A stretch of 64,000 nt of DNA, from positions 1 to 64,000 of the forward strand of contig MU832212.1 of assembly GCA_029204225.1 (NCBI GenBank). The letters run 5' to 3'. Shown here piece after piece: positions 4,391 to 63,051 of this stretch. The notes under the pieces are model-generated. The model had not been told where the DNA came from and did no database searches. It saw only the letters and a list, made by a program, of their open reading frames with translations. The position numbers and the translations under genes were made by a program. This stretch comes from Diphasiastrum complanatum (lineage: Eukaryota; Streptophyta; Lycopodiopsida; Lycopodiales; Lycopodiaceae). How positions within the stretch are numbered: position 1 is the stretch's first letter; each line of letters opens with the position of its first letter.

Positions 4391-4401
4391 TCCACCCCAC
4401 C
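4391..4401 (-). other. Element A polypurine tract
   Basis: On the minus strand GGTGGGGTGGA sits immediately before the TGTTGTAAAG start of the 3' LTR, the position expected for the plus-strand DNA synthesis primer. The same sequence is at 37981-37991 in element B. Confidence 0.8.
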
Positions 4402-6240
4402 TTTATAAAATCTGATGTCCTCATCAGATGTCAGATTAAAGTAAAGGTGTCTCCCAATTAAAATGACTATACATTTAAGCTACTTGGCACCACACTCAAT
4501 TTACTGGCCACTTTTTATTAACATTGAAGCTGGCACTCCACAAGTCGGAGGCTCAACTCTTTGTACTGAAAAATTACATAACTTGAAAAAAATATCTTTG
4601 TCTGAGAAAAGCGTAGATTTGATATCGCTTCGTAAAACCCGATAACCTTATTAACTGGTGACAGAGGCCTTTCTTTGAAATGTACGCCCCTGTCGCTTCT
4701 GACTTTTGACTTTGGAACTAATTTGAGCTCCTGATTTGTCCTTGATGCACTTTGTGTTGAGCTCCCTGAGCTCCAGATTTGTTCAGTTCTGCACAGGTAT
4801 CAAGGCTCCCTGAGCCGAAGGATTTATCGTTTGATTGCCCACTTTATGGTCCACTCTGTGCCTTGTTGCTTCTGCACCTTGATTTCTCTCCTTGTCCCAG
4901 CCTGATCTTGATACTTTTCCATCTTGGCTCTTTAAGGTAGGCAAAGATTGAGTACTCCGCAATGCACCTCTCACTTAGCTTGAAGTAGCTCTTTGAATCA
5001 GCCCAAATGTAACCATTGACCTCGTGGAAAGCCAAAGGGTCGCACCAGTTTGATCCGCATCGGAACTATCTCTTCGCGTTTGTTTGAAGCACCATGTCCG
5101 TCGCGCAAAACTTGACTTTCACAATTCCATCACTGGTCAGTTGCCTCACAGTCAAAACAAGAAGTGTACATCGAGCTTGGCTTCAAGTAGCTCTTTTTGA
5201 ATCAGACACATGCACCCAGAGTTTGCACTAGTCCGATCTCAATGCGAACTGTCCCTTAGCGTCCGTTCGAAATACCAAGTCTCTCATGCAAGACTCAACT
5301 TTCACAGTTCCTTCATTGATCAGCTGCCTTACACGTAACACAAGCCAGCGTACTCATATGTTTCCTCATCATTGCTGGTCCAGAGAAAGCCTATAACAAA
5401 CTTTCCTTTCCACAACAAAAACTTGTCAACTTATTAGGTCCAAAGTTCGCCAGTCTCCTCGTGTGAGTATGGCTAGGTCACCTTGAATTTGCTCCCATTT
5501 TGATCAACTTTCATTCAAAATTTTCCCCAAGAGAGAGGTGTGTGTGATAGTTCCCCTCCACTTATAAAATCAGCTGATCGGACTTAGAGTAGAGTTCTTC
5601 GGACAAAAAGCCTTTCCAACACTTTGCTTCCCATCTGCTAGGATTATGGCTCGATCCAACTTGTCGCCAATCTCTGAAGAGGATCCTAGTCTTTTCCCCT
5701 TTGAGGAAAAACCCAACTGATACTGGATATCACCCATGCTCAGTGAGTTTCAATTCCGAAGGTGGCCGTCCCAAAATGAAGACCAACTGCTCCATAGAAG
5801 ATCTCCCCTGAAATTGCCCTTTCCAACTTTTGACTTCCTGCTTGCGTCTGGTGGGCGTTGTCGCAAATAAAACTAACCCAAGAAACAGGCTAGCCATCCA
5901 TCCTTTGCAAACATTGAGTCGTTTCGTTGTCGTTCACGTGTGAGTACTTGAACTGCAAATCCGTCCCACAGATTCTGTAGTCCTCTTTGTTTGATGGTAT
6001 CAGCCTTCAAAAGAAAAGGTTCCTTCTCGAGCCATCAGCTCCTTGTATCACAAGCAATCATGCAAACCAGACAAAGCACGAGTACTAAGACTCACCACGA
6101 ATACATACAAGTAAGACACTCAGGCAAGTTTACTAACAAGTAACAAAGACAAGGTGCCCTTTTGAGATGGTCCTGCCAACGGACCTTTGCTTGGCCGCGC
6201 CCATACAAATCGATCACAGAATCAGCCCACATAGGACACC
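4402..6240 (-). other. Element A non-coding interior
   Basis: No retroelement domain is readable in either strand; only short uninterrupted frames are seen. The sequence is closely matched by the interior of element B (37992-38849, 44083-44598 and 50874-51560), which confirms it as the shared body of a non-autonomous family and not degraded pol. Confidence 0.8.
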
Positions 6241-6249
6241 CCTCCAACC

Positions 6250-6905
6250 ATCCGTGCTTTCACCATTAAGCAGCACATTGCCTCAGTCACGCCCCACCAC
6301 TTTTTGGTCGATAGCCCTTATAGCTAAACGATCGGCAGCTATCCGTGAATATACCACCCCCGTGGATGCACCCGTGCTTTCACCGTCAGACAGCACATTG
6401 CCTTAGTAACGCCCTCACCAAATCTAGTCGATAGCCCTTATAGCTAAACGATCGGCAGCGTACCCCCCAATCGTGGACGCACCCGTGCTTTCACTGTTAG
6501 GCAGCACATTGCCTCAGTAACGCCCCCACCAAATTTGGTCGATAGCCCTTTTAGCTAAACGAATGGCAGCTATCCTTGAATATACCACCCCCGTGGACGC
6601 ACCCGTGCTTTCACCGTTAGGCAGCACATTGCCTCAGTAACGCCCCCACCAAATTTAGTCGATAGCCCTTATAGCTACACGATCGACAGCATACCACCCA
6701 AATCGTGGACGCACCCGTGCTTTCATCGTTAGGCAGCACATTGCCTCAGTAACGCCCCCACCAAATTTAGTCGATAGACCTTATAGCTACACGATCGACA
6801 ACATACCACCCAAATCGTGGACGCACCCATGCTTTCACCGTTAGGCAGCACATTGCCTCAGTAACGCCCCCACCAAATTTGGTCGATAGCCCTTATAGCT
6901 AAACG
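6250..6905 (-). repeat. Tandem leader repeats of element A, six units of ~111-120 bp
   Basis: Six head-to-tail copies are marked by CGTGCTTTCACCGTTAGGCAGCAC or close variants, at about 6253, 6373, 6484, 6604, 6716 and 6830 (one reads CATGCTTT). Each includes AGTAACGCCC and a GATAGCCCTTATAGCTA block. Two unit types alternate (CGATCGGCAG- and CGATCGACAG-type). In element orientation each unit holds a GTGCT...AGCAC stem. Element B and elements C/D have only one unit of this type at the equivalent place, so A has expanded it. Confidence 0.9.
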
Positions 6906-7212
6906 AACGGTGGCCATCGCGAATATGTCACCCCGCACCCCACAAGGCACAGACCATGCTTACACCATCCTAATGGCAGCAGATTGTCTCATATGTCCTA
7001 CGTGCAGACGACGCCAGGCCTGAACCGCAGAAACTGACCGTGCTTACACCTCAAGGGTAGCACTTTGAATCATCAAGCCCCCGTCCTGCCAACCACCCCG
7101 ACCGTGGATGCACCCGTGCTTACACTGTGGGCAACACCTTGCACAACAGTTGTCTTGATGAACCCCAAACCGTGGCCATTTCCGTGAGATCCGCATAGCT
7201 GACCAGCCAGTC

Positions 7213-7225
7213 GGCTTTGATACCA
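7213..7225 (-). other. Element A primer-binding site (initiator-Met tRNA)
   Basis: Minus strand TGGTATCAAAGCC, two bases from the 5' LTR end. It differs by one base from the plant initiator-Met site TGGTATCAGAGCC seen intact in elements B, C and D. Confidence 0.85.
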
Positions 7226-7227
7226 CA

Positions 7228-8442
7228 TGTAGCACAGGCATCCCAAAGGGAGCCGGGAACCACGACTTAGCTTCCCAGCCTTCAACTCTTGCCATCCAAA
7301 CCCACTTGACATACAAGCAGCCAACTCGCCAACAACGATCAGACTTAACCAACTTGAAGTTCCGAAAACCAACATTGAGATCCAACCTGGCGCCATGCCA
7401 GATCGGGGGTCTCGATGTGTGTGACTTCCCTCCAAGCAAGCCGCCCGACATACATCAAACTTAACCAACTCCAAGCTTCGTTACAAATGAGTAACATCTA
7501 TTCCAAGCAAGCGGTCTGACTTACATCAGACTTAACCAACTGAAAGCTTCGTCACGAGCGCTGGAAGCCAACCTGGCGCCACGCCAGACTGGACAGCTAT
7601 AAACAGGTAACATCCACCCAAGCAAGCCATCCAACTCAGCTGACAAGTTAGAGCCCGTTCCCCAAGAGCTTAACCCATTCACGTTCATGCAAGGAACACT
7701 CAGAACCACAAGCCGCAACAGATATGGAAACAACCAGTTCCTGGACCAAATGGTCCCGACAGCATACCGCTGGCGCCACGGACCGAATGGTCCCGACGGC
7801 ATACCGCTGGCATCCCGGGATACGACCCTCAACTATGTGCCAAGTTAAAAATTTTGAAAGCGGCCTTACAACTGGCGCTTTTAACGAACACTGAAACCCA
7901 GAAGGTAATCAGAGTCAGTTTGAGAAAAATCCCACTTTATTGATAAATTTGAGAAGGTTACATTTCAAGTGTGTGACCGACCCTAGTCTCCGGGGCGCTA
8001 GCATGCCAAGGCGAGAGCCATGACAACATTCCAGCAAGAGAGGCTGAGACTTGGTTGGAGCTCGTCCTGAGTCGCAACCCGCACTCCCCTATAGTATTGG
8101 TGTGATTCGGCACCCCTCCCTCATACCAAGCACTCTACCCAAGCTGGTAAAGCACGTTTTTCTCTTTCTAGAAAGTCATTTTCTCTCTCTAGATTTTATT
8201 GATCCCCAGGCTTCCTTTAATCATGCCTAGATCGTGTGAGGTGATTGCACATCGATCTGAGCTCTCTGGACTCCGCTAGAACCGATCAAAGATTTTTAGC
8301 CATAGAAACTTGGCGCTGGCTGGATTCTGGTCACAGTGGCGCCGGGAGCGGCGCCGGGAGAAGCAGGGGCGCTGCTGGCGTCGGGGACATAGCTGGCGCC
8401 GATGGCGCCGGAAGTAAAGCTTGTAAAGGTAGCTTTACAACA
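7228..8442 (-). repeat. Element A 5' LTR
   Basis: Direct repeat of 3190-4390, bounded by TG...CA, adjoining the primer-binding site on its left and the ATAAC target duplication (8443-8447) on its right. It keeps a GGCGCC-rich segment (about 8310-8410) that is shortened in the partner LTR. Confidence 0.93.
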
Positions 8443-36734: not shown

Positions 36735-37980
36735 TGTAGCGCAGGCATCCCAAAGGGAGCCGGGAACCACGACTTAGCTTCCCAGCCTTCAACTCTTGCC
36801 ATCCGAACCCACTTGACATACAAGCAGCCAACTCGCCAACAACGATCAGACTTAACCAACTTGAAGTTCCGAGGACCAACATTGAGATCCAACCTGGCGC
36901 CATGCCAGATCGGGGGTCCCGATGTGGGTGACTTCCCTCCAAGCAAGCCGCCCGACATACATCAAACTTAACCAACTCGAAGCTTCGTTACAAACGAGTA
37001 ACATCCATTCCAAGCAAGCGGTCTGACTTACATCAGACTTAACCAACTGAAAGCTTCGTCACGAGCGCTGGAAGCCAACCTGGCGCCACGCCAGACTGGA
37101 CAGCCATAAACAGGTAACTTCCACCCAAGCAAGCCATCCAACTCAGCCGACATGTTAGAGCCCGTTCCCCAAGAGCTTAACCCATTCACGTTCATGCAAG
37201 GAACACTCGGAACCACAAGCCGCGACAGATATGGAGACAACCAGTTCCTGAACCAAATGGTCCCGACAGCATGCCGCTGGCGCCACGGACCGAATGGTCC
37301 CGACGGCATACCGCTGGCGTCCCGGGATACGACCCTCAGCTATGTGCCAAGTTAAAAATTTTGAAAGCGGCCTTACAACTGGCGCTTTTACCGAACACTG
37401 AAACCCAGAAGGTAATCAGAGTCAGTTTGAGGAAAATCCCACTTTATTGATAAATCTGAGAAGGTTACATTTCAAGTGTGTGACCGACCCTAGTCTCCGG
37501 GGCGCTAGCATGCCAAGGCGAGAGCCATGACAACATTCCAGCAAGGGAGGCTGAGACTTGGTTGGAGCTCGCCCTGAGTCGCAACCCGCACTCCCCTATA
37601 GTATTGGTGTGATTCGGCACCCCCCCCTCATACCAAGCACTCTACCCAAGCTGGTAAAGCACGTTTTTCTCTCTCTAGGATTTTCTCTTTCTAGAAAGTC
37701 ATTTTCTCTCTCTAGATTTTATTGATCCCCAGGCTTCCTTTAATCATGCCTAGATCGTGTGAGGTGATTGCACATCGATCTGAGCTCTCTGGACTTCGCT
37801 AGAACCGATCAAAGATTTTCAGCCATAGGAACTTGGCGCCGGCTGGATTCTGGTCACAGTGGCGCCGGGAGCGGCGCCGGCACCATTGGCGCCGGGAGCA
37901 GCAGGGGCGCTGCTGGCGCCGGGGACATAGCTGGTGCCGATGGCGCCGGAAGTAAAGCTTGTAAAGGTAGCTTTACAACA
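36735..37980 (-). repeat. Element B 3' LTR
   Basis: TGTAGCGCAGG...TTTACAACA, direct repeat of 52088-53334. A GGCGCC-rich block lies at about 37830-37950 and an AATAAA signal, in element orientation, near 37450. Confidence 0.93.
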
Positions 37981-37991
37981 TCCACCCCACC
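37981..37991 (-). other. Element B polypurine tract
   Basis: Minus-strand GGTGGGGTGGA directly before the LTR start, identical to that of element A. Confidence 0.8.
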
Positions 37992-38849
37992 TTTATAAAA
38001 TTTGATGTCCTCATCAGATGTCAGATTAAAGTAAAGGTGTCTCCCAATTAAAATAACTATACATTTAAGCTACTTGGCACAGTACTCAATTTACTGGCCA
38101 CTTTTTATTAACATTGAAGCTGGCACACCACAAGTCGGAGGCTCAGCTCTTTGTACTGAAAAATTACATAACTTGAAAATATATCTTTGTCTGGGAAAAG
38201 CGTAGATTTGATATCGCTTTCGTAAAACCCGAGAACCTTATTAACTGGTGACAGAGGCCTTTCTTTGAAATGTTCGCCCCTGTCGCTTCTGACTTTCGAC
38301 TTTGGAACTCCTTTGAGATCCTGATTTGTCCTTGATGCACTTTATGTTGAGCTCCCTGAGCTCCAGATTTGTTCAGTTCCGCACAGGTATCAAGGCTCCC
38401 TGAGCCGAAGGATTCATCGTTTGATTGCCCACTTTATGGTCCACTCCGTGCCTTGTTGCTTCTGCACCTTGATTTCTCTCCTTGTCCAAGCCTGATCTTG
38501 ATACTTTTCCATCTTGGCTCTTTAAGGTAGGCAAAGATTGAGTACTCCACAATGCACCTCTCACTTAGCTTGAAGTAGCTCTTTGAATCAGCCCAAATGT
38601 AACCATTGACCTCGTGGAAAGCCAAAGGGTCGCACCAGTTTGATCCGCATCCGAACTATCTCTTCGCGTTTGTTTGAAGCACCATGTCCGTCGCGCAAAA
38701 CTTGACTTTCACAATTCCATCACTGGTTAGTTGCCTCACAGTCAAAACAAGAAGTGTACATCGAGCTTGGCTTCAAGTAGCTCTCTTTGAATCAGAAACA
38801 TGCACCCAGAGTTTGCACTAATCCGATCTCAACGCGAACTGTCCCTTAG

Positions 38850-39769
38850 TGTTGTAAAGCTGACTTGGGTTCACCCAGCGTGCCCTGTAAGACTCAAAGG
38901 GGTGACACTCCCTAAGGTCCCAGAGCAAGTTAGAATGTCAAGGACTGAGCCTCCGACCTGTGGTGAGCCAGTCAAGTAGTCACAAAGTCATGAGCTAGCT
39001 CTGGAGCTCGAGTCATGGCCTAGTCAGGAAAGCAGGTTGATTCGGCCGCCGGGACGGCTCCCGGGACCCATGTCCGGGAGCCAGACTGATTCTGCCTGGC
39101 TTGCCAGGCTTAATCAGCAAAATAAAAACTAAGTCCTAAAAAGCGTGCTTTACCAGAAAGCACTATGTTTCAAACCAGAGGGGGTGCGCCGAATCACAGC
39201 AGAACTATAGGGGGAGTCCGGCAGACAGAAACTTGGGCACCTCAACCAGCGCCAGGAATCCAGTCGCCAGGTCTCAGCTCCCTCTACCAGCACGAGCCAG
39301 GCACAATGCCCAGCACGTGTTGGTGGCCCCGAGACCGGTCAGTCTATGTATGAATGTAACCTCTTCCAAATCTAATAAAGTTGATCCTTGGGGATGATTA
39401 CCATTTCGGTTTCGCCTCCGGGACTGGTCCAAGTGGAAGGACCCTTACTACAACCTTTTTGCGTCGCTGGCGCCTAAGGGTCCCTGTCATCGACATGGGG
39501 CTTGCCGCTATGCCAATTGGTCAGTTTGGCGACCACTATGCCTTGGGTTTCATGTGTGGCTTGTCTTTGCCTTTGGTTACCTTTTGGGGACGGATTCTGA
39601 GTTGGCTTTCGGGTTGGTTGGGATTCCAGTTTTCTTAAGTCTGAATGGTTAAGCTTGTTACGATTCTGAGTTGGCTTTTACGTAAGTGCATGATGGATGA
39701 ATGTTAGACTTAAGCGCGTGTTGGGGAAACCGCTCAAGTCCCAGCGCCCTTTGAGGCGCCGGCGCAACA
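38850..39769 (+). repeat. Element C 5' LTR
   Basis: Starts TGTTGTAAAGCTGACTTGGG and ends GGCGCAACA. Contains AATAAAGTTGATCC (polyA signal region near 39375) and a donor-like ACGTAAGT near 39680. The last ~400 bp is nearly identical in all four C/D LTRs. Confidence 0.93.
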
Positions 39770-39771
39770 TG

Positions 39772-39784
39772 TGGTATCAGAGCC
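39772..39784 (+). other. Element C primer-binding site (initiator-Met tRNA)
   Basis: TGGTATCAGAGCC, two bases after the 5' LTR end, an exact match to the plant initiator-Met site. Confidence 0.9.
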
Positions 39785-40602
39785 GACTAGCCGGTCAGCT
39801 ACGCAAGTCTCACAGGGATGGCCACGTTTTTGGGATTTGTCAGGACAACCGTTGCGCAAGGTGCTGCCCACAGTGTAAGCACAGGTGCGTCCACGGTCGG
39901 GGTGGTCGGCAGAACGGGGGACTTGATGAGTCAAAGTGCTGCCCTCGAGGTGTAAGCACGGTCAGTTCTCACGGTTCGGGCCTGGCGCTGTCTGCACGTA
40001 GGACGGATGAGGCAAAGTGCTGCCTAGGTAGGTGAAAGCACGGTCTGTACCTTGTGGGGTGCGGGGCGACATATTCGAACTGTACGGGTTAACCATTGAT
40101 ACAGAGATGCTGCTCGAATTCGGGTGTAAAGCACGGGTGGTTAGCTGCCGGTGCGGGATAGCTGCCGATCGTTTAGCTATAAGGGCTATCGACCAAAAAG
40201 TGGTGGGGCGTGACTGAGGCAATGTGCTGCTTAATGGTGAAAGCACGGATGGTTGGATGGATGTTTTCCCGTGGGCTAATTCTGTGATAGATTTGTGTGG
40301 GCGCAGCTAGGCAAAGGTCCTACGTCCGGTCTCAGGGGGGGTTTGTGGCTTGAGAGGGATCCTCTATGTTTGCTTTGGTTGGTATGTTCCGTTTGTCGTG
40401 TGCTTGCTTGGACACAAATGACCTGGTTCCTACTTGGCTCTCAGGTGATGTGGGCGTGCTAAGTTTGAGGAAGGTATATTTTCATTGAAGCTGATTTAAT
40501 AAAGAAGAAAAGAGAGCTGTGGGGCCCGGCTGACAGAAGGGAGAGCTTCAAATATAAAAAGGATTGAGGCGATAATCTGTTGGAAGTACACCTCTGACTA
40601 TA
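39785..40602 (+). other. Element C leader with repeated GTGCT/AGCAC hairpins
   Basis: Five units of the form GTGCTGCY...GTGWAAGCACGG lie between about 39859 and 40246, each able to pair GTGCT with AGCAC. This part is almost identical to the leader of element D and is matched by the leader of element B. A pyrimidine-rich CTCAG at 40440-40444 before GTGATG looks like a splice acceptor. Confidence 0.75.
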
Positions 40603-41751
40603 ATGGAGGACCATCTTGAAGAGTTACGAGCACTGACGGACGGAGAAGAGCTGACTCGAGAATACAGCTCTCGCATGCATCGAGATGGCACCAGATCCAA
40701 GTTGAGAAAGAAAGAGCGTATGCACTCCACAGTGGCGCCCCTCCATGAAGAGATGGGTGGCCCTTCTGAACCTACACCAAGAGATGAACCCTTGCCAGAG
40801 GCACAACATGACCTCTTTGAAGTGAAGATGCGGCAATACTTATCAAGCGCAATGACGGCTATGCTTAGCGAGGTGAAGAAGGATAGAGAAACCGAAAGGA
40901 AAGAATGGCAAACATCCTTGCGAGCCATGAATCTTACCCAAATTAACCTTGCTAGAGAAATGAGAGACGGGCTAACACAGCTCGAAGCCAGGTTTAAAGA
41001 GTTGGAAGCAACTAAGGAGAATGCAGTGGCGCCTCCTCCACAGATACCAAGAGAACCACGAGCGCGAACCACGGAGGGCCCAAGAAAGACTGCCAAAGTG
41101 AAAGCACCACCTACTTTCAAAGGAGAGCGTGATATTCGAGTTGTGGAAGATTGGTTGTTTCACATGGACCATTACTTCCGTCTAATGAACACTCCTGAGG
41201 AAGAAAGAACTGACTTGGCATTAGCATATTTTGAGGGCTACACTACAAATTGGTACCGGATGGCAGGAATGCATTTTCAAACATGGGACGCATTCAAAGC
41301 CGCGTTACGAGAGGAGTTCATACCGAAGGATTCACACATGAGATTGAGGACAGAATTATCGGGGCTCAAACAGAAAGGGTCATTGCGAGAGTACCTCAAT
41401 AGATTCAGACAGAGTGTATGGGTTATTGAAGATATGTCCGAGGCGGACAAAACTCATTACCTATTGTCTGGAATGCAATCCTGGACCCGACGTGCGATAG
41501 ACAGCTACATGCCCCATGATTTCAATTCAACTATTCGAGCGGCTGAAATGGTTTGTGATTATGAGAGCACATTGGCACCAGCTGCTCCCGCAACCTCAAC
41601 AAGAGTATTTAGTGGATCCAGACCGAGTCCGAGCTTCTTTTCAAGAGGGGACTCAGCTCCAAATGGCAACCAAGCCTCGAGTAGCGTGAATAAATTCCCA
41701 ACAAAAACAGGGTTTGGCAACCAAGGCAACAATGGAGGGAACATGTTCTAG
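40603..41751 (+). CDS. gag: Gag (capsid) of element C, ended by an amber codon
   Basis: Start ATG 40603 (MEDHLEELRALTDGEELTRE) is the first ATG after the leader. Residues ~75-145 look helical and coiled-coil-like (MRQYLSSAMTAML, REMRDGLTQLEARFKELEA). Residues ~171-320 are the retrotransposon gag domain (FKGERDIRVVEDWLFHMDHY, FEGYTTNWYRM, LREEFIPKD, GSLREYLNRFRQ). A Ser/Asn/Gly-rich linker follows. The frame ends at TAG 41749-41751, yet the same frame is open on both sides and continues into the zinc knuckle, so the full gag was longer. Gag would assemble the particle that packages element RNA. Either readthrough or a single inactivating mutation explains the stop. Confidence 0.85.
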   Translation: MEDHLEELRALTDGEELTREYSSRMHRDGTRSKLRKKERMHSTVAPLHEEMGGPSEPTPRDEPLPEAQHDLFEVKMRQYLSSAMTAMLSEVKKDRETERKEWQTSLRAMNLTQINLAREMRDGLTQLEARFKELEATKENAVAPPPQIPREPRARTTEGPRKTAKVKAPPTFKGERDIRVVEDWLFHMDHYFRLMNTPEEERTDLALAYFEGYTTNWYRMAGMHFQTWDAFKAALREEFIPKDSHMRLRTELSGLKQKGSLREYLNRFRQSVWVIEDMSEADKTHYLLSGMQSWTRRAIDSYMPHDFNSTIRAAEMVCDYESTLAPAAPATSTRVFSGSRPSPSFFSRGDSAPNGNQASSSVNKFPTKTGFGNQGNNGGNMF

Positions 41752-42816
41752 AGAAGAAACAATGTTGGACCTTCGACTAGTCACAGCAACAGCTCACCAA
41801 CAGTGGGCAGTTCCATGCGTTGCTTCAACTGTCATCAGCAAGGTCACTCTTGGAGATCATGCCCCAAACCATTGAATAAGCAAATCATGGCTGCCATTGA
41901 AGGATTTGATAGGATGGAGAGAGAGGCATTTGATCAAGAAGATGGTGAACAAGATGATGAAGAGGACCCAGAAACGGATTTGACGGAGTCTGACCTGAAT
42001 GCCTTGCAACAGATAGGGGCACTTGCGGCTTATCGTGAACATCTTATGGCGACTCCTGCGAGAGGATCCAAGTTATTGTACCTGAAAGGCTGTATTCAAG
42101 GCAGGATCATTTACTTCATGGTAGACCTGGGGGCGTCTCATAACTACTTGTCAGAAAAACTGACAGGAGAATTGGACATCCAATGTGAAGAAAATGTGAC
42201 TCCTATTTGTGTGGAGACCGCGAAAGGTACAATGACCACTTGTAGATTGGCAACCAACTTACCAATCTCTCTGGGAGCCTGGAAGAATCGACTAACGTTC
42301 ACAATCTTGAAGATGGATGCCTTCGACGCTATTTTGGGATTAAGTTGGTTTAACGAACATGTGGTGGCCTTCTTGGCAAAAGGGGTTAACCTTGTGTTAT
42401 TATATAATGGCAGGAGACCTTGTGTCGTCAGAGCTGTGCCAGGGGACCAACTAGAAAAGAACGACACAAATGAACCTGAGCCAACCATTCCTCCCAATCT
42501 CATTCACCTATTTAACGAAGGACAACCAACAGTGACAGACCAGCTGGCACGGGAACAAATGGAGCCAAAATTGCCTATAGTCTCTACATCAAAGGTGAAT
42601 TCAAGTGCCGATGCAGAGCTCAAGGAGCTCACCTTGTGTGACCAAGCGAAAACTCACCTTTTTAATGAAAGACATCCAACAGTGACAAACCAGTTGACGC
42701 GAGGTCAAATGGAGCCAACATTGCCTGCAGTTTCTACGTCAAAGGTGAATCTAAGTGCCGATGCAGAGCTCAAGGAGCTCAACCTGGACGACCAAACGAA
42801 ATATCTAGAGTCCTAG
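41752..42816 (+). CDS. Nucleocapsid zinc knuckle and protease of element C (same frame as gag)
   Basis: In frame with gag after the amber codon, this begins with an Asn/Ser-rich linker, then zinc knuckle CFNCHQQGHSWRSC, an acidic stretch (EDGEQDDEEDPETD) and a gypsy retropepsin domain (about residues 488-610 counted from the gag ATG). The active site reads FMVDLGASHNYLS, with Leu in place of the Ser/Thr of DSG/DTG, so activity is doubtful; the second motif AILGLSWF is normal. The tail has two 50-codon tandem repeats (42505-42654, 42655-42804; HLFNE...PTVT...QMEP). It stops at 42816 where RT would begin in related elements. Confidence 0.8.
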   Translation, partial: RRNNVGPSTSHSNSSPTVGSSMRCFNCHQQGHSWRSCPKPLNKQIMAAIEGFDRMEREAFDQEDGEQDDEEDPETDLTESDLNALQQIGALAAYREHLMATPARGSKLLYLKGCIQGRIIYFMVDLGASHNYLSEKLTGELDIQCEENVTPICVETAKGTMTTCRLATNLPISLGAWKNRLTFTILKMDAFDAILGLSWFNEHVVAFLAKGVNLVLLYNGRRPCVVRAVPGDQLEKNDTNEPEPTIPPNLIHLFNEGQPTVTDQLAREQMEPKLPIVSTSKVNSSADAELKELTLCDQAKTHLFNERHPTVTNQLTRGQMEPTLPAVSTSKVNLSADAELKELNLDDQTKYLES

Positions 42817-43170
42817 GGGACTCATCCAGATGTGCGACGACAATGACATATCTGAGGCTTAAGGGAGCCGTGAGTACCTTTTTCTTTCATGCTAATAAAG
42901 TAAGCCGCATTTCTCATTGAGGAGTGAGCTTCAGTTTGATGTCTAAGTACAGCAGCTTCACACAGGTTTTACGTAAGTGAACTAGATCCACACTTTTCCT
43001 GTGCTGGGTGTAAAACACAATATCATTACTCTGCTTTACAATTGGTTTCCTTTGGCCGGTGAATCAAGCCCGTGCCCTTGTATATGTGACTAAAGTCTGG
43101 CCGGTGAATTAAGCCCGTGCCATGAGTCTTAGGTTCTAGTTTGGCCCTGATGAGGACATCAGCTTTCTCA
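42817..43170 (+). other. Element C 3' UTR
   Basis: Non-coding. From GCAGCTTCACACAGG on it matches the 3' UTR of element D, except that the block beginning GGCCGGTGAAT is present twice (43054, 43099) where D has it once (49872). Includes TTTTACGTAAGTG, also found in the LTR. Confidence 0.75.
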
Positions 43171-43183
43171 AACGAGGGGAGGA
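43171..43183 (+). other. Element C polypurine tract
   Basis: AACGAGGGGAGGA directly before the 3' LTR (TGTTGTAAAG). The same tract precedes the 3' LTR of D. Confidence 0.85.
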
Positions 43184-44082
43184 TGTTGTAAAGCTGACTT
43201 GGGTGCACCCAGCGTGCCTTGTAAGACTCAAAGGGGTGACACTCCCTAAGGTCCCAGAGCAAGTTAGAATGTCAAGGACTGAGCCTCCGACCTGTGGTGA
43301 GCCAGTCAAGTAGTCACAAAGTCATGAGCTAGCTCTGGAGCTCGAGTCATGGCCTAGTCAGGAAAGCAGGTTGATTCGGCCGCCGGGACGGCTCCCGGGA
43401 CCCATGTCCGGGAGCCAGACTGATTCTGCCAGGCTTGCCAGGCTTAATCAGCAAAATAAAAACTAAGTCCTAAAAAGCGTGCTTTACCAGAAAGCACTAT
43501 GTTTCAAACCAGAGGGGGTGCGCCGAATCACAGCAGAACTATAGGGGGAGTCCGGCAGACAGAAACTTGGGCACCTCAACCAGCGCCAGGTCTCAGCTCC
43601 CTCTACCAGCACGAGCCAGGCACAATGCCCAGCACGTGGCCCCGAGACCGGTCAATCTATGTATGAATGTAACCTCTTCCAAATCTAATAAAGTTGATCC
43701 TTGGGGATGATTACCATTTCGGTTTCGCCTCCGGGACTGGTCCAAGTGGAAGGACCCTTACTACAACCTTTTTGCGTCGCTGGCGCCTAAGGGTCCCTGT
43801 CATCGACATGGGGCTTGCCGCTATGCCAATTGGTCAGTTTGGCGACCACTATGCCTTGGGTTTCATGTGTGGCTTGTCTTTGCCTTTGGTTACCTTTTGG
43901 GGACGGATTCTGAGTTGGCTTTCGGGTTGGTTGGGATTCCAGTTTTCTTAAGTCTGAATGGTTAAGCTTGTTACGATTCTGAGTTGGCTTTTACGTAAGT
44001 GCATGATGGATGAATGTTAGACTTAAGCGCGTGATGGGGAAACCGCTCAAGTCCCAGCGCCCTTTGAGGCGCCGGCGCAACA
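43184..44082 (+). repeat. Element C 3' LTR
   Basis: Direct repeat of 38850-39769 with small deletions (for example a ~14-bp loss before TCTCAGCTCCC and an 8-bp loss near GCACGTG). Confidence 0.93.
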
Positions 44083-44598
44083 CTTAGCGTCCGTTCGAAA
44101 TACCAAGTCTCTCATGCAAGACTCAACTTTCTCAGTTCCTTCATTGATCAGCTGCCTTACGCGTAACACAAGCCAGCGTACTCATATGTTTCCTCATCAT
44201 TGCTGGTCCAGAGAAAGCCTATAACAAACTTTCCTTTCCACAACAAAAACTTGTCAACTTATTAGGTCCAAAGTTCGCCAGTCTCCTCGTGTGAGTATGG
44301 CTAGGTCACCTTGAATTTGCCCCCATTTTGATCAACTTTAATTCAAAATTTGCCCCAAGAGAGAGGTGTGTGTGATAGTTCCCCTCCACTTAATAAATCA
44401 GCTGATCGGACTTTAGAGTAGAGTTCTTCGGACAAAAGCCTTTCCAACACTTTGCTTCCCATCTGCTAGGATTATGGCTCGATCCAACTTGTTGCCAATC
44501 TCTGAAGAGGATCCTAGTCTTTTCCCCTTTGAGGAAAAACCCAACTGATACTGGATATCACCCATGCTCAGTGAGTTTCAGTTCCGAAGGTGGCCGTC

Positions 44599-45516
44599 TG
44601 TTGTAAAGCTGACTCAGGTGCACCCAACGTGCCCTGTAAGACTCTAAGGGGTGACACTCCCTAAAGTCCCAGAGCAAGTTAGAACGTCAAGGACTGAGCC
44701 TCCGACCTGTGGTGAGCCGGTCAAGTAGTCACAAGTCATGAGCTAGCTCTGGAGCTCGAGTCATGGCCTAGTCAGGAAGCAAGTTGATTCTGCCACCGGA
44801 ACGGCTCCCGGGACCCATGTTCGGGAGCCAGACTGATTCTGCCAGGCTTGCCAGGCTTAATCAGCAAAATAAAAACTAAGTCCCAAAAAGCGTGCTTTAC
44901 CAGAAAGCACTATGTTTCAGAACAGAGGGGGTGCGCCGAATCACAGCAGAACTATAGGGGGAGTCCGGCAGACAGAAACTTGGGCAGCTCAACCAGCGCC
45001 AGGAATCCAGTCGCCAGGTCTCAGCTCCCTCTACCAGCACGAGCCAGGCACAATGCCCAGCACGTGTTGGTGGCCCCGAGACCGGTCAGTCTATGTATGA
45101 ATGTAACCTCTTCCAAATCTAATAAAGTTGATCCTTGGGGATGATTACCATTTCGGTTTCGCCTCCGGGACTGGTCCAAGTGGAAGGACCCTTACTACAA
45201 CCTTTTTGCGTCGCTGGCGCCTAAGGGTCCCTGTCATCGACATGGGGCTTGCCGCTATGCCAATTGGTCAGTTTGGCGACCACTATGCCTTGGGTTTCAT
45301 GTGTGGCTTGTCTTTGCCTTTGGTTACCTTTTGGGGACGGATTCTGAGTTGGCTTTCGGGTTGGTTGGGATTCCAGTTTTCTTAAGTCTGAATGGTTAAG
45401 CTTGTTACGATTCTGAGTTGGCTTTTACGTAAGTGCATGATGGATGAATGTTAGACTTAAGCGCGTGTTGGGGAAACCGCTCAAGTCCCAGCGCCCTTTG
45501 AGGCGCCGGCGCAACA
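44599..45516 (+). repeat. Element D 5' LTR
   Basis: TGTTGTAAAGCTGACTCAGG...GGCGCAACA, same length and apparent sequence as 49956-50873. polyA signal region AATAAAGTTGATCC near 45121; donor-like ACGTAAGT at about 45427-45434. Confidence 0.95.
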
Positions 45517-45518
45517 TG

Positions 45519-45531
45519 TGGTATCAGAGCC
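45519..45531 (+). other. Element D primer-binding site (initiator-Met tRNA)
   Basis: TGGTATCAGAGCC, two bases after the LTR. Confidence 0.92.
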
Positions 45532-46231
45532 GACTAGCCGGTCAGCTACGCAAGTCTCACAGGGATGGCCACGTTTTTGGGATTTGTCAGGACAACCGTT
45601 GCGCAAGGTGCTGCCCACAGTGTAAGCACGGGTGCGTCCACGGTCGGGGTGGTCGGCAGAACGGGGGACTTGATGAGTCAAAGTGCTGCCCTCGAGGTGT
45701 AAGCACGGTCAGTTCTCGCGGTTCGGGCCTGGCGCTGTCTGCACGTAGGACGGATGAGGCAAAGTGCTGCCTAGGTAGGTGAAAGCACGGTCTGTACCTT
45801 GTGGGGTGCGGGGCGACATATTCGAACTGTACGGGTTAACCATTGATACAGAGATGCTGCTCGAATTCGGGTGTAAAGCACGGGTGGTTAGCTGCCGGTG
45901 CGGGATAGCTGCCGATCGTTTAGCTATAAGGGCTATCGACCAAAAAGTGGTGGGGCGTGACTGAGGCAATGTGCTGCTTAATGGTGAAAGCACGGATGGT
46001 TGGATGGATGTTTCCCCGTGGGCTAATTCCGTGATAGATTTGTGTGGGCGCGGCTAGGCAAAGATCCTACGTCCGGTCTCAAGGGGAATGTGACTTGAGA
46101 GGGATCCTCTGTTTAGCTTTGGTTGGTATGTTCGTTTGTGGTGTGCTTGCCTGGACCTGAATTATCCCTGACTACTTCTTTTGATCCAGGTGATCTGATC
46201 TAGTTGGGAGTTGTGAGAGGAGCTTACATTT
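45532..46231 (+). other. Element D leader with five repeated hairpins
   Basis: Stem pairs GTGCT/AGCAC lie at 45608/45625, 45683/45702, 45764/45784, 45854/45877 (ATGCT variant) and 45971/45989. Each has GCC or GCT after the 5' arm and GTGWA before the 3' arm. Position next to the primer site and conservation across elements B, C and D suggest an RNA function such as packaging or dimerisation; that is inference. TTTGATCCAG at 46180-46189 before GTGATC resembles a splice acceptor. Confidence 0.75.
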
Positions 46232-49200
46232 ATGAGTGGACGACGCACAAGTATGGAAAGGAACTTCCATGGGGCAACCCCCAAGATTGGTTCAAGATTG
46301 TTATTCTTATCAGGAAAGATCGCGGGGAGGAAGTCAGATTTCATGATCGACTCCGGAGCTTCACATAACTATATCTCAAGGAGCGTAGTGGAACAATTCA
46401 GCTTGCCGACCAGGAATGTTACATCTACTCTCAAGGTAGAAACAGCGAAGGGAGCACTAGATGCAGACAAAGCGACATTGAACATCCCGGTGCAGATTGG
46501 AAGATGGAAGGCTAAACTTAGCTTTGTGATTTTAGAGATGGATGCCTTTGATGTGATTTTGGGCCTCCCTTGGTTAAATGAACACTGTATCGCAGTTTTG
46601 GGTAGGAGCTCAAACTTGGTCCTCTTGGATTATAAGGGACAAATCTGCGTGACAAAAGCCCTGCCCGGAGGAAATGCTAAGGATACCGATATTGAACAAA
46701 ATCTGGTTGCAGCATTAGTGATGAAAAGAATGGCGAAAGGGAAAAGGTCAAAGTGCTTTCTTTGCATCTGTCGAGAAGTCCCAGAAGGGAAAAGCGTGCG
46801 ACAAGAAAACTTGCCAAAAGAAGTGGCAGATCTGTTAGAAGAATTTAGCGATGTGTTCCCGGAGGAACTCCCAGCTAAGCTACCTCCTCGAAGACCAGTG
46901 GACCATAAAATTGAGTTGGTACCAGGAACAGAGCCAACTTCACGAGCACCCTACAGAATGTCACAAGAAGAGTTGGCGGAACTGAAACGACAACTTGGTG
47001 AATTGATAGACAAAGGTTTTATTAGACCTAGCGCTTCACCTTTTGGAGCCCCAGTGTTGTTCGTGGAAAAGGCAGACAAAACTCTTCGAATGTGTGTGGA
47101 TTATCGCATGCTTAACAAGAGTACCATCAAGAACAAGTACCCCATGCCTAGAATTGATGACCTATTCGACCAACTCAAACATGCCAAATACTTTAGCCGA
47201 ATAGATCTCAGATCTGGATATCATCAAATTCGAATAGCTAAAGGTGATGAGCACAAAACGGCGTTTCGAACGCGGTACGGAAGTCACGAGTTCCTAGTGA
47301 TGCCATTCGGTCTAACAAACGCACCAGCCACTTTTTGCACGTTGATGAACAATATATTTCAAGACTGCCTGGATGAATTTGTCATTGTGTACATTGATGA
47401 CATATTAGTATTTAGCCGAAACCTTAAAGATCACATTCAACATTTAAGGACAGTTCTCCAACGACTGAGGAGGAACTGCTTGTTCGCGAAAAGAGAGAAA
47501 TGTGAGTTTGTGGTGGAGGAAGTTGACTTCCTTGGACATGTTATAGGCCACGGACGGATTCGAATGGATCCTAAGAAGATCAAGGCTATCTTGGATTGGC
47601 TAGCACCTAAAACTGTTCATGGCATCAAATCCTTTGTGGGCTTATGTAACTTTTACAGGAGATTCATTGAGGCATTTAGCAAAATTGTGGCACCACTGTT
47701 GGAGCAGACCAAGACTCATCTGAAGATGACATGGACACCGGAATGTGAAGCAGCGTTCCAGGAACTAAAACGACGGATCACTCAAGAACCCATCCTTGCC
47801 TTACCGGACTTTAGCAAACCTTTTGAAATACATACAGATGCGTCGAACTTTGCTATTGGGGCCGTGCTGATGCAAGACGGAAAACCTGTTGCATATTTTT
47901 CAAAGAAATTGAGTGACGTAGAGCGACGATGGCCAACTCATGAAAAAGAAATGGTCGCAGTAGTCCAAGCAGTGGAGCATTGGAGACATTATGTGGCAGG
48001 AAAACCCTTTAAGGCGTTCACTGATAATGTATCACTCAAGTACTTCTCATCCCAAGGTATGCTCACGCCAAAGCAAATGCGATGGCAAAACTTTCTCTCA
48101 AAATTCAATATAGACATTTTACACACGGCGGGAAAGAACAATGTGGTGGCGGACGCACTAAGTAGACAAGAACACTTGATGGCAACAGTGACAACTCAGG
48201 TGACTGACCTACTCCAAGAAATCAGAGAGAATTATGGTGTGGATGCGTTGGCGAAGGACTTAATGATCGAATTCCAGCTGGGAAAACCTCATAAACATTT
48301 CACTTGGAAAGATCAAATGGTTGTTTATAAACAACGCAGAGTATATGTCCCAGACAGCATCAACCTGAGGAAGAAAGTCTTGCGAGAACATCATGACGTA
48401 CTAGCCGCCGGGCATCCAGGGGTGAATCGCATGTATGAACTTCTCAAAAGAGGCTTCTATTGGCCAAGTATGTGGGCAGACGTTGAATCTTATGTACAAA
48501 CATGCCCGACATGTCAACAAGTGAAGGTGGAACCGCTAGCTCCGGCTGGACTACTCCAACCATTACCGGTACCAGCATACCCATGGGATTCGGTGAGCAT
48601 GGATTTTATTGTTCAACTACCACGGTGCCAAGGATTCGACTCAATTTATGTGGTGGTTGACCGCTTTTCAAAGCAAGTTCATCTAGTACCAACTAAAAGT
48701 TCAGTGACAGCTGAAGAAGTGGCAAGGTTATTTTTCAAATGTGTTTTCAAATACCACGGCCTGCCTAGAACGATTATTTCTGACCGAGACACCAAGTTCG
48801 TCGGGAAGTTTTGGACTTGTCTATTTCGCCTCGTGGGAACCGGATTGAATTTCAGTACTGCATATCATCCTCAGACAGATGGGCAAACGGAGCGAGTCAA
48901 TCGACAGATTGAACAATATTTACGAAATTATGTCGCTTGGGACCAATCCGATTGGGTCAACTACTTGGATATTCTCGAGTTTGCACATAACAACCAAGTG
49001 AACAGATCTACTGGAAGGGCACCCTTCGAGATAAGCAATGGTCGGCTACCGATTGTTCCAAGCTCTTTTCTTACAGGCGTGCAGGAAACACCAGTACCCA
49101 CTGTGGAGGAATTCATCAATGAGTGGCACACAAAGTTGACCGAGGTGAAGGCGTTTTTAGAGCAGTCACAAAGGAGTATGGCAGCTGACGTAAACCCACA

Positions 49201-49714
49201 TCGACGAGAACTGGAATTTGAGGAAGGTGATCAAGTATGGCTGAACACAAAGAACATTGCGCTACCAAAAGGTTTTTCTCATAAGTTTGCTCGACCTTAT
49301 GCGGGACCATATTATGTCACCAAGAAGATCAACCCAGTGGCTTATCGATTAGCGTTGCCATCCAGCTTGGATATACACAATGTGTTCCATATCTCATTAC
49401 TCAAACGGTACAAACCAGATGAGCGATTTGATCGGCAACACGAACTCCGTCACCCACCAACGACACTTGATGATACGAAGAGGCAGCTTGTACCAGAACA
49501 AATATTGACACATAGAAAGCGAACTGGCGTTCAACGTGAATATCTAGTGAAGTGGCTACGAGCTCCACTTATTGAGGCTTCTTGGGAGTACGAAGACAAA
49601 CTTAAGGAGGGAGCCCCTGAAGTACTAGCAGATTATCTGCAGAAGAACCAACGCAATAGCCGTTTTCCCAGATCGGCACACAAAGCACTACCTGGCGGCA
49701 TGCCTCTTACATAA
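46232..49714 (+). CDS. pol: Gypsy chromovirus Pol: protease-RT-RNase H-integrase-chromodomain, 1160 aa
   Basis: One intact frame. Protease: [13 protein letters not shown] (Asp40). [22 protein letters not shown] and catalytic [10 protein letters not shown] (Asp389-Asp390). RNase [14 protein letters not shown] (Asp536), [14 protein letters not shown] and VVADALSR. Integrase: zinc-binding [11 protein letters not shown] (His720) to CPTCQQ (Cys758), then the catalytic set SMDFIV Asp791, ISDRDTKF Asp851 and DGQTERVN Glu887, with the usual 35-residue second spacing. The C-terminus holds the GPY-like segment ([11 protein letters not shown]) and a chromodomain at ~1088-1140 ([18 protein letters not shown]), which targets chromovirus integration to particular chromatin. 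The start ATG gives a short leader peptide before protease; there is no gag. All visible catalytic residues are present, so the protein is plausibly active but needs gag in trans. Confidence 0.95.
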
Positions 49715-49942
49715 ACATTCATGGCCATTCTGAAGTTCAAGGAACTTTCCGGTATTTTTCTTAAGTTTGCCAATAAATCACTTGCAGCTTTACACAGGTT
49801 TTACGTAAGTGAACTTTATCTACACTTTTCCTGTGCTACTGCCAATGTATTTTGTCATTCAAAGTTGCTAAGGCCGGTGAATTAAGCCCGTGCCATACGT
49901 CCTAGGTCTAGTTTGGCCCTGATGAGGACATCAGCTTTTTCA
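49715..49942 (+). other. Element D 3' UTR
   Basis: Non-coding, sharing its latter part with the element C 3' UTR, including TTTTACGTAAGTG (about 49799) and a single GGCCGGTGAATTAAGCCCG block. Confidence 0.75.
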
Positions 49943-49955
49943 AACGAGGGGAGGA
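49943..49955 (+). other. Element D polypurine tract
   Basis: AACGAGGGGAGGA directly before the 3' LTR. Confidence 0.85.
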
Positions 49956-50873
49956 TGTTGTAAAGCTGACTCAGGTGCACCCAACGTGCCCTGTAAGACT
50001 CTAAGGGGTGACACTCCCTAAAGTCCCAGAGCAAGTTAGAACGTCAAGGACTGAGCCTCCGACCTGTGGTGAGCCGGTCAAGTAGTCACAAGTCATGAGC
50101 TAGCTCTGGAGCTCGAGTCATGGCCTAGTCAGGAAGCAAGTTGATTCTGCCACCGGAACGGCTCCCGGGACCCATGTTCGGGAGCCAGACTGATTCTGCC
50201 AGGCTTGCCAGGCTTAATCAGCAAAATAAAAACTAAGTCCCAAAAAGCGTGCTTTACCAGAAAGCACTATGTTTCAGAACAGAGGGGGTGCGCCGAATCA
50301 CAGCAGAACTATAGGGGGAGTCCGGCAGACAGAAACTTGGGCAGCTCAACCAGCGCCAGGAATCCAGTCGCCAGGTCTCAGCTCCCTCTACCAGCACGAG
50401 CCAGGCACAATGCCCAGCACGTGTTGGTGGCCCCGAGACCGGTCAGTCTATGTATGAATGTAACCTCTTCCAAATCTAATAAAGTTGATCCTTGGGGATG
50501 ATTACCATTTCGGTTTCGCCTCCGGGACTGGTCCAAGTGGAAGGACCCTTACTACAACCTTTTTGCGTCGCTGGCGCCTAAGGGTCCCTGTCATCGACAT
50601 GGGGCTTGCCGCTATGCCAATTGGTCAGTTTGGCGACCACTATGCCTTGGGTTTCATGTGTGGCTTGTCTTTGCCTTTGGTTACCTTTTGGGGACGGATT
50701 CTGAGTTGGCTTTCGGGTTGGTTGGGATTCCAGTTTTCTTAAGTCTGAATGGTTAAGCTTGTTACGATTCTGAGTTGGCTTTTACGTAAGTGCATGATGG
50801 ATGAATGTTAGACTTAAGCGCGTGTTGGGGAAACCGCTCAAGTCCCAGCGCCCTTTGAGGCGCCGGCGCAACA
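49956..50873 (+). repeat. Element D 3' LTR
   Basis: Direct repeat of 44599-45516; the short frames they contain translate identically. Confidence 0.95.
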
Positions 50874-50878
50874 CCGTC

Positions 50879-51334
50879 CCAAAATGAAGACCAACTGCTA
50901 TAGAAGATCTCCCCTGAAATGGCCCTTTCCAACTTTTGACTTCCTGCTTGCGTCTGGTGGGCGTTGTCGCAAATGAAACTAACCCAAGAAACAGGCTAGT
51001 CATCCATCCTTTGCAAACATTGAGTCATTTCGTTGTCGTTCACGTGCGAGTACTTGAACTGCAAATCCGCCGCACAGATTCTGGATATCGCCCATGCTCA
51101 GTGAGTTTCAGTTCCGAAGGTGGCCGTCCCAAAATGAAGACCAACTGCTCCATAGAAGATCTCCCCTGAAATGGCCCTTTCCAACTTTTGACTTCCTGCT
51201 TGCGTCTGGTGGGCGTTGTCGCAAATGAAACTAACCCAAGAAACAGGCTAGCCATCCATCCTTTGCAAACATTGAGTCGTTTCGTTGTCGTTCACGTGTG
51301 AGTACTTGAACTGCAAATCCGCCCCACAGATTCT
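50879..51334 (-). repeat. 250-bp tandem duplication inside element B
   Basis: The segment starting GGATATC.CCCATGCTCAGT and ending CACAGATTCTG is present twice in B but once in A (5736-5972). Unit 1 is 44551-44598 plus 50879-51083, split by element D; unit 2 is 51084-51334. The duplication therefore predates D. Confidence 0.85.
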
Positions 51335-51519
51335 GTAGTCCTCTTTGTTTGATGGTATCAGCCTTCAAAAGAAAAGGTTCTTTCTCGAGCCATCAGCTCC
51401 TTGTATCACAAGCAATCATGCAAACCAGGCAAAGCACGAGTACTAAGACTCACCACGAATACGTACAAGTAAGACACTCAGGCAGGTTTACTAACAAGTA
51501 ACAAAGACAAGGTCCCCCT

Positions 51520-52072
51520 TTGAGATGGTCCTGCCAACGGACCTTTGCCTAGCCGCGCCCATACAAATCAATCACGGAATCAGCCCACATAGGACACCCC
51601 TCCAACCATCCGTGCTTTCATCATTAAGCAGCACATTGCCTCAGTCACGCCCCACCACTTTTTGGTCGATAGCCCTTATAGCTAAACGATCGGCAGCTAT
51701 CCCGCACCGGCAGCTAACCACCCGTGCTTTACACCCGAATTCGAGCAGCATCTCTGTATCAATGGTTAACCCGTACAGTTCGAATATGTCGCCCCACACC
51801 CCACAAGGTACGGACCGTGCTTTCACCTCCCTAGGCAGCACTTTGCCTCATCCGTCCTACGTGCAGACAACGCCAGGCCCGAACCGCGAGAACTGACCGT
51901 GCTTACACCTCAAGGGCAGCACCTTGACTCATCAAGTCCCCCGTTCTGCCGACGACCCCGACCGTGGACGCACCCGTGCTTACACTGTGGGCAGCACCTT
52001 GCACAACAGTTGTCTTGATGAACCCCAAACCGTGGCCATTTCCGTGAGATCCGCATAGCTGACCGGCCAGTC
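51520..52072 (-). other. Element B leader with hairpin units
   Basis: On the minus strand the same series of GTGCTGCC...GTGWAAGCACGG units as in C and D lies between 51610 and 51990, in the same order. It has none of the six-fold expansion seen in element A. Confidence 0.75.
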
Positions 52073-52085
52073 GGCTCTGATACCA
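52073..52085 (-). other. Element B primer-binding site (initiator-Met tRNA)
   Basis: Minus-strand TGGTATCAGAGCC next to the 5' LTR (52088). Confidence 0.9.
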
Positions 52086-52087
52086 CA

Positions 52088-53334
52088 TGTAGCGCAGGCA
52101 TCCCAAAGGGAGCCGGGAACCACGACTTAGCTTCCCAGCCTTCAACTCTTGCCATCCGAACCCACTTGACATACAAGCAGCCAACTCGCCAACAACGATC
52201 AGACTTAACCAACTTGAAGTTCCGAGGACCAACATTGAGATCCAACCTGGCGCCATGCCAGATCGGGGGTCCCGATGTGGGTGACTTCCCTCCAAGCAAG
52301 CCGCCCGACATACATCAAACTTAACCAACTCGAAGCTTCGTTACAAACGAGTAACATCCATTCCAAGCAAGCGGTCTGACTTACATCAGACTTAACCAAC
52401 TGAAAGCTTCGTCACGAGCGCTGGAAGCCAACCTGGCGCCACGCCAGACTGGACAGCCATAAACAGGTAACTTCCACCCAAGCAAACCATCCAACTCAGC
52501 CGACATGTTAGAGCCCGTTCCCCAAGAGCTTAACCCATTCACGTTCATGCAAGGAACACTCGGAACCACAAGCCGCGACAGATATGGAGACAACCAGTTC
52601 CTGGACCAAATGGTCCCGACAGCATGCCGCTGGCGCCACGGACCGAATGGTCCCGACGGCATACCGCTGGCGTCCCGGGATACGACCCTCAGCTATGTGC
52701 CAAGTTAAAAATTTTGAAAGCGGCCTTACAACTGGCGCTTTTACCGAACACTGAAACCCAGAAGGTAATCAGAGTCAGTTTGAGGAAAATCCCACTTTAT
52801 TGATAAATCTGAGAAGGTTACATTTCAAGTGTGTGACCGACCCTAGTCTCCGGGGCGCTAGCATGCCAAGGCGAGAGCCATGACAACATTCCAGCAAGGG
52901 AGGCTGAGACTTGGTTGGAGCTCGCCCTGAGTCGCAACCCGCACTCCCCTATAGTATTGGTGTGATTCGGCACCCCCCCCCTCATACCAAGCACTCTACC
53001 CAAGCTGGTAAAGCACGTTTTTCTCTCTCTAGGATTTTCTCTTTCTAGAAAGTCATTTTCTCTCTCTAGATTTTATTGATCCCCAGGCTTCCTTTAATCA
53101 TGCCTAGATCGTGTGAGGTGATTGCACATCGATCTGAGCTCTCTGGACTTCGCTAGAACCGATCAAAGATTTTCGGCCATAGGAACTTGGCGCCGGCTGG
53201 ATTCTGGTCACAGTGGCGCCGGGAGCGGCGCCGGCGCCATTGGCGCCGGGAGCAGCAGGGGCGCTGCTGGCGCCGGGGACATAGCTGGCGCCGATGGCGC
53301 CGGAAGTAAAGCTTGTAAAGGTAGCTTTACAACA
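52088..53334 (-). repeat. Element B 5' LTR
   Basis: Direct repeat of 36735-37980 with few differences (for example a longer C run near 52972-52981). Confidence 0.93.
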
Positions 53335-53347
53335 GAAATGCCCACAT

Positions 53348-54290: not shown

Positions 54291-54410
54291 TCAAGAGGTC
54301 CAAGACACTCCCCTCGTATCTTGAATTACCCTATGATGGCAGTTTTCAATGCCACCTGGGGGCAACTCTCACTCCTTGTAAAATGGGAGAGAGTACTCTT
54401 TAATTGGCTC
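54291..54410 (+). repeat. Flanking repeat, right copy
   Basis: AAGAGGTCCAAGACACTCCC..., diverged copy of 36609-36729. Confidence 0.75.
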
Positions 54411-62770: not shown

Positions 62771-63051
62771 TAGGTCGTATACTTGGATGAATCTTTCCCA
62801 GGCCTAGGAACTGGTTCAGAAGTATGCACGTCTCTGTTCTGGACTGTCTTCCAGATTATGGAGAAATACGAATCACTTTTACATTTACCCCTCAAGGACA
62901 AGAGTAACTCATTACGAAACTGGGTAAAACTCAACTCGTTTATCATTGGCATTCTGCTAAGAGCATCTCCCACTATATTGAACTTTCCTTGTTTATATCT
63001 GAAATACAAGTCAAATTCATGCATTAGCTCAGCCCATCGAGCTTTCTGACC
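62771..63051 (-). pseudogene. Gypsy RNase H, C-terminal part
   Basis: Minus-strand KARWAELMHEFDLYFRYKQG and KFNIVGDALSRMP, including the last RNase H Asp, then the start of the integrase connector. It is separated from the N-terminal RNase H part by the 63052-63406 insert. Confidence 0.8.

Follow-up and report, generated by a model that had tools for sequence, protein, structure and literature searches.

Two long terminal repeat (LTR) retrotransposons, here termed C and D, lie nested within a larger non-coding element, B, in a 64,000-nucleotide stretch of the lycopod Diphasiastrum complanatum (NCBI GenBank assembly GCA_029204225.1, contig MU832212.1, positions 1 to 64,000 of the forward strand; hereafter the window, C694:1-64000 in our searches). 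C carries gag and a protease and D carries pol without gag, and the two families are probably reciprocal, mutually dependent and non-autonomous, so that together they would act as one LTR retrotransposon, with B and its sister element A as passengers. The basis for this reading is the structure of the elements, the many near-identical copies, their youth, the excess of synonymous changes in the D pol and the mosaic tracts in their control regions. An initial annotation of the window had proposed such a split between a gag genome and a pol genome, and the genome supports it: C-type and D-type copies are many, and none of the copies examined combines gag with a reverse transcriptase (RT).

C and D are two separate plus-strand insertions within minus-strand B, each with its own target-site duplication (TSD). 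C (38850..44082, +) is bounded by LTRs at 38850-39769 and 43184-44082 and by the TSD CTTAG. The LTR pair differs by five substitutions and two indels; the idea that C is older than its host B was rejected, as the apparent LTR divergence of 2.8% is mostly owed to the two indels. The C leader (39770..40413, +) consists of the primer-binding site (PBS) followed by a hairpin series and is homologous to that of D; a motif scan found four hairpins in it, the first being off the motif by one base. The coding content comprises Retrotrans_gag/Ty3_capsid and an aspartyl protease, and only the protease finds a match in the D pol, in keeping with the earlier description of C as lacking RT and integrase. 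The capsid part of gag (40603..41751, +) ends in the window copy at a single in-frame stop ahead of the zinc knuckle, whereas most other listed copies have longer open frames; that most of them are open at that very site led us to reject a designed readthrough stop. The remaining part (41752..42816, +) encodes the zinc knuckle, a protease with D-L-G in place of D-S/T-G and a C-terminal tail, which contains two in-frame repeats of 148 bases (42504..42801, +) with a non-synonymous divergence of 0.139 and a synonymous divergence of 0.383 (p=0.03 on raw counts). The C gag has no second match within the window and no match at E 1e-3 in protein collections; viral contigs yielded no near relative. 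Having two LTRs and only GAG plus aspartic protease between them, C is a TR-GAG element by structure. Scanning the window against Rfam and for tRNAs returned nothing.

D (44599..50873, +) is flanked by the TSD CCGTC, and its LTRs (44599-45516 and 49956-50873) are identical across 918 bases. Its leader (45517..46156, +) holds the PBS and, at leader positions 93, 168, 249, 339 and 456, five hairpins whose stems are GUGCU/AGCAC. The pol frame (46232..49714, +; first ATG at 46232) runs stop-free for 1165 codons through protease (D-S-G), RT, RNase H, integrase, SH3 and chromodomain, and nothing in D matches the C gag; the intact pol frame and the missing gag that had been noted for D are thus both borne out. 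The RT-RNase H-integrase order and the C-terminal chromodomain make D a chromovirus (Ty3/gypsy). It resembles BARE2-like gag-less elements in keeping pol and its own LTRs and packaging region while making no Gag, but departs from BARE2 itself, a copia element with a complete Gag donor, since D is Ty3/gypsy and its Gag-bearing relative is C, without RT or integrase. Gag and pol occur together in neither C nor D nor in any copy examined, so none of these is an autonomous LTR retrotransposon. Relatives of D in protein collections are 36-50% identical among the 120 matches listed.

What joins the two elements is their control sequence. The LTR, the PBS, the hairpin leader and the polypurine tract (PPT) region are common to C and D. 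The PBS, TGGTATCAGAGCC, stands after TG and is one that we take to be that of tRNA-Met. The sharing described in the initial annotation therefore stands, but the likeness is uneven: although the LTRs and leader are 95-98% alike by BLAST, substitutions between window C and D amount to 18/391 in U3, 0/529 in R-U5, 3/499 in leader positions 1-499 and 11/145 in positions 500-644 (U3 against R-U5 plus leader 1-499, p=3.5e-8). In the C copy at C885, leader positions 1-500 equal D (0/500), though its coding part does not, and R-U5 differs at 5/529, and in the C copy at C4114, for which part of R-U5 was in hand, the leader differs from D at 7/500. Leader positions 501-640 differ from D at 10-11 places in all three C copies compared. 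At the D-type locus L089 (C13:18137259-18137659) the leader end is of the C type (97.9% to C, 91.0% to D), and on its sequence this locus is a natural C/D recombinant. R-U5 and the first 500 bases of the leader thus look like tracts that C and D have traded, and what the partners share, to judge from the natural recombinants, is the 5' end of the RNA. GUGCU/AGCAC-stem hairpins number five and occupy corresponding places in D and B, and the leader hairpins are likely to be a packaging signal; palindromic kissing loops are not claimed, as some D loops appear palindromic and those of B are not all kept so.

The host elements bear the same marks. B (36735..53334, -; LTRs 36735-37980 and 52088-53334; TSD GAAAT) holds C and D, and its own interior matches neither the C gag nor the D pol. 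A (3190..8442, -; LTRs 3190-4390 and 7228-8442; TSD ATAAC) is its non-coding sister. As had been noted, A and B share the PBS, the leader hairpins and LTR core blocks, all of which we find on the minus strand. Both have the LARD organization, a long interior without coding domains (as judged against the C gag and D pol) between LTRs, with PBS and PPT kept. The A leader (window 5800-7227) has seven hairpins, including an array of units of about 112 bases that replaces the C/D-like middle leader. The B leader is a mosaic (p=6e-5). Positions 1-100 go with A (three differences against 15 to D), 101-300 go with D (seven differences against 25 to A) and 301-450 equal D exactly, while from 386 to 450 A, B and D have their sequence in common. 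The tract at leader positions 101-385 (51703..51987, -), nearer to C/D than to A, appears to be a recombinant segment and lends support to the earlier suggestion that A and B are passengers. In the available part of a study of the Arabidopsis element ONSEN, recombinant copies derive from pairs of RNAs that share a particle, such tracts being a product of template switching between RNAs packaged together (PMC5668417). The same process may lie behind the tracts of C, D and B.

The shared part of the coding sequence tells of a much older separation. Across 142 residues the C and D proteases agree at 44%, with synonymous sites saturated, and among 84 proteins with both domains, taken from the 120 listed D matches, the 227 pairs with a protease identity of 0.40-0.45 are at the median 0.73 identical in RT. 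A tree of 86 rows and 144 columns places the two proteases in one group with an SH-aLRT support of 87. Despite LTRs and leaders that are 95-98% alike, the coding parts therefore parted long ago, probably within one clade. A difference at 56% of residues in the only overlapping domain also rejects a simple deletion of one gag-pol parent, part of what the initial annotation had named as fatal to its proposal. The catalytic triplet of aspartic proteases is D-S/T-G. It is D-S-G in all 22 fetched D loci, whereas all 23 C copies read lack the Ser/Thr, with D-L-G in 21 and D-M-G in two (the window copy, L023, L033, L038, L039 and 18 short pieces). This suggests that the C protease is inactive. Since C has no Ser/Thr at this site and D has no gag, C probably relies on a protease supplied in trans, and D requires a Gag.

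Searches covered the 1.74-Gb assembly, and only the best-scoring copies were scored, from 969-1898 first-look candidates per DNA query and 12216 for the gag protein. On the gag side, the best 40 of 969 candidates for the gag DNA query are each 100% identical across 401 bases, and all 40 have the PPT and 3' LTR downstream at the spacing of C (within 13 bases), leaving no room for an RT ahead of the 3' LTR in any; L041 breaks 12 bases into the 3' LTR and L105 is rearranged inside it. Among the best 106 gag protein copies, 77 have a frame of exactly 746 amino acids, as in C (one with a TAG within the match), 29, window C among them, have shorter frames and none has a longer one. A further C copy, L035, which an A/B LTR interrupts 777 bases into the coding part, is left unclassified.

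On the pol side, the D U3 query gave 1898 candidates, of which 40 were scored, and all 41 matches were inspected. The 14 D LTR pairs found outside the window all have perfect 5-bp TSDs, and their LTRs differ at 0-3 of 918 positions (12 differences in total). Pol is indel-free in 12 of these 14 copies, 11 of them also stop-free; the remaining two have one large internal deletion and a one-base gap, respectively. None of the 22 D loci from this search, the 14 pairs and eight more, contains gag; one of the eight, L031, has a deletion running from the leader into the protease, and another match, L032, is a solo LTR. The best 40 of 1297 candidates for the RT query comprise 14 loci already in hand (that of the window included), 20 new ones with the leader-protease junction inspected and six left out. 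In 16 of the 20 the leader is joined directly to the protease, D-type and without gag; the other four have A/B sequence at the junction (two), a truncated D (one) and an assembly gap (one). D, lacking gag, has been mobile often and in recent times. Across 15 D pol frames, 48 changes comprise 25 synonymous, 22 non-synonymous and one stop, a synonymous share above the 0.299 expected from random changes of the same spectrum (25/48 against 30%, p=0.001), which suggests that the gag-less element is maintained for its pol. The prediction that non-synonymous change would be depressed in both families accordingly holds for D pol, whereas three C copies, one of them frameshifted, are not informative.

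These observations can be drawn together as follows. The C RNA would be translated into a Gag comprising capsid, zinc knuckle and a seemingly inactive protease domain, which would form the particle and recognize the common leader. The D RNA would provide the active protease, RT, RNase H and chromodomain integrase. With R-U5, primer site and hairpin leader the same in the two RNAs, one Gag could package both, and one RT and integrase could copy and insert both; the D protease would mature both components. A and B RNAs, with leader and primer site kept and no recognized gag or pol, would ride along. C, D and A/B RNAs would share particles, and recombination at their 5' ends would keep the partners compatible. 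We infer from this arrangement packaging by the C Gag, mutual supply in trans and a dependence of C on the D protease.

The principal alternative is an autonomous gag-pol chromovirus with the same or a related leader that supplies both Gag and Pol, with C as an ordinary TR-GAG element and D as an ordinary BARE2-like gag-less parasite. Elements of these kinds are classed as non-autonomous (PMC6022998), and BARE2 uses the Gag of a complete relative (PMC3735527), as far as the available portions of these papers go; our examination was moreover limited to the best-scoring copies. Such a helper nevertheless seems unlikely, though far from negligible, given that no gag frame exceeds 746 amino acids among 106, none of 40 gag loci has room for an RT and no gag is present at 22 plus 16 D junctions; the synonymous excess in the gag-less D pol would also be unexpected for a passive parasite of a full helper. 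A different account, which we consider very improbable, takes C and D for unrelated defective derivatives mobilized only by several unrelated chromoviruses, the likeness of LTRs and leader then reflecting conserved function and not exchange. Leader hairpins and PBS are plausible requirements in cis, and A and B keep them too. Recombination is preferred over constraint because the identity of R-U5 and most of the leader stands beside 18/391 differences in U3, because different C copies have different identical tracts, and because of the recombinant locus L089 and the mosaic B leader. An assembly artefact or single chance deletions may be suspected where nested repeats are hard to assemble, and one RT locus does lie beside an N gap, but with tens of listed copies per form on many contigs and perfect TSDs in 14 of the 14 D pairs tested this explanation is scarcely credible.

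Several points weigh against reciprocal dependence of C and D, or against the steps that lead to it. A gag-pol helper that is rare or diverged could lie under the scoring cut and be missed: counts of 0/40 and 0/106 are compatible with up to 7% and 3%, respectively, and only among the copies most like the query. The gag protein frame test is blind to gag and pol in different frames, which the spacing test covers for the 40 DNA matches alone, and six of the 40 RT loci fall outside the junction count. The selection analysis used 15 of the 23 D copies in hand, the others being cut, broken, interrupted or fetched later, and the synonymous excess could predate the loss of gag. For C, 23 non-synonymous and 15 synonymous changes and two stops indicate no clear selection. 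The support for grouping the two proteases is modest, not strong, and Leu or Met at D-x-G falls short of proving a dead protease. Finally, in the C copy at C4114, the third compared, U3 is nearer D (8/389) than window C (17/387), so that U3/R is not in every case the edge of the exchanged tract.

Elements without gag or without pol are as a rule taken for parasites of a complete element. TR-GAG elements, reportedly the subject of Chaparro et al. in 2015, are usually supposed to depend on an autonomous gag-pol partner. LTR swapping between autonomous and non-autonomous soybean elements was reportedly treated by Du et al. in 2010; as in C/D, the partners are joined by exchanged control sequence, but there an autonomous partner exists, to go by the title. 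HeT-A, a gag-only element with RT supplied in trans, resembles C, but HeT-A and TART are non-LTR elements and TART, unlike D, also has gag. In the accessible text, TR-GAG elements are defined by LTRs that enclose GAG, either alone or together with aspartic protease (PMC6022998); C fits this definition, but its pol seems to come from a gag-less family and not from a complete element. Barley BARE2 is gag-less, is packaged in BARE1 particles and has conserved packaging signals, according to the part of the paper at hand (PMC3735527), but BARE1 makes its own Gag and Pol, whereas C, the gag donor here, has no RT or integrase. Sunflower TR-RT, TR-RT-RH and TR-INT-RT transcripts derive from LTR elements with single enzymatic open reading frames (PMC9784723, in the section available); that section describes no gag element partnered with them by way of a shared leader, and D has the full protease-RT-RNase H-integrase-chromodomain set. 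In ONSEN, as far as the text available goes, recombination is among members of one family. Each part thus has a precedent, TR-GAG for C, BARE2 for D and LARD for A/B. The closest precedent for the whole system appears to be ePVCVL and ePVCVL2 of grasses, described in the available part of the source as complementary defective pararetroviruses with no autonomous partner found, control regions homogenized by recombination and a proposed mutualism (PMC5491270). Two complementary defective genomes and homogenized non-coding control regions are common to both systems; unlike those endogenous pararetroviruses, C and D are an LTR retrotransposon pair with an integrase, near-identical copies and an altered catalytic site in the protease of the gag partner. 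A literature search limited to open-licence papers returned no LTR retrotransposon organized as a reciprocal gag/pol pair, a weak negative, and the part of PMC12786077 available contains nothing on split elements.

The fullest form of the proposal, an obligate two-genome LTR retrotransposon with no autonomous master, in which one family brings gag and a dead protease, another brings pol and an active one, and a recombining packaging leader joins the two, with selection on both halves and RNA-only passengers as a third class, has in our view an even chance of being right. If so, here a transposable element would have a multipartite genome. A mutual helper pair would show how such a genome arises and persists in one host nucleus with both parts co-inherited, and it opens to testing the question of whether a protein that a transposon has to share can be under selection.

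Some further observations concern insertion sites. D copies L010 (C82) and L020 (C3) lie at the identical position (746-750) of an A/B-type LTR at different chromosomal places, and five of the 14 paired D copies (L009, L010, L013, L016 and L020) have A/B LTR on both flanks, which suggests an integration preference of D for A/B LTRs. The partners also land in each other: C is inserted in a D copy at L023/L024 (C885), and D in the 3' LTR of a C copy at L025/L033 (C4114). A truncated A/B-type LTR in the opposite orientation (window 53346-54292) lies a few bases past the end duplication of B. Elsewhere in the window lie pieces of a different gypsy pol (62348-63995, -), 32-48% identical to the D pol, and copia fragments (RVT_2, SH3 and gag) occupy 672-2023 and 11245-13344, likewise on the minus strand; for the former, the public relative that scores best is 49% identical.

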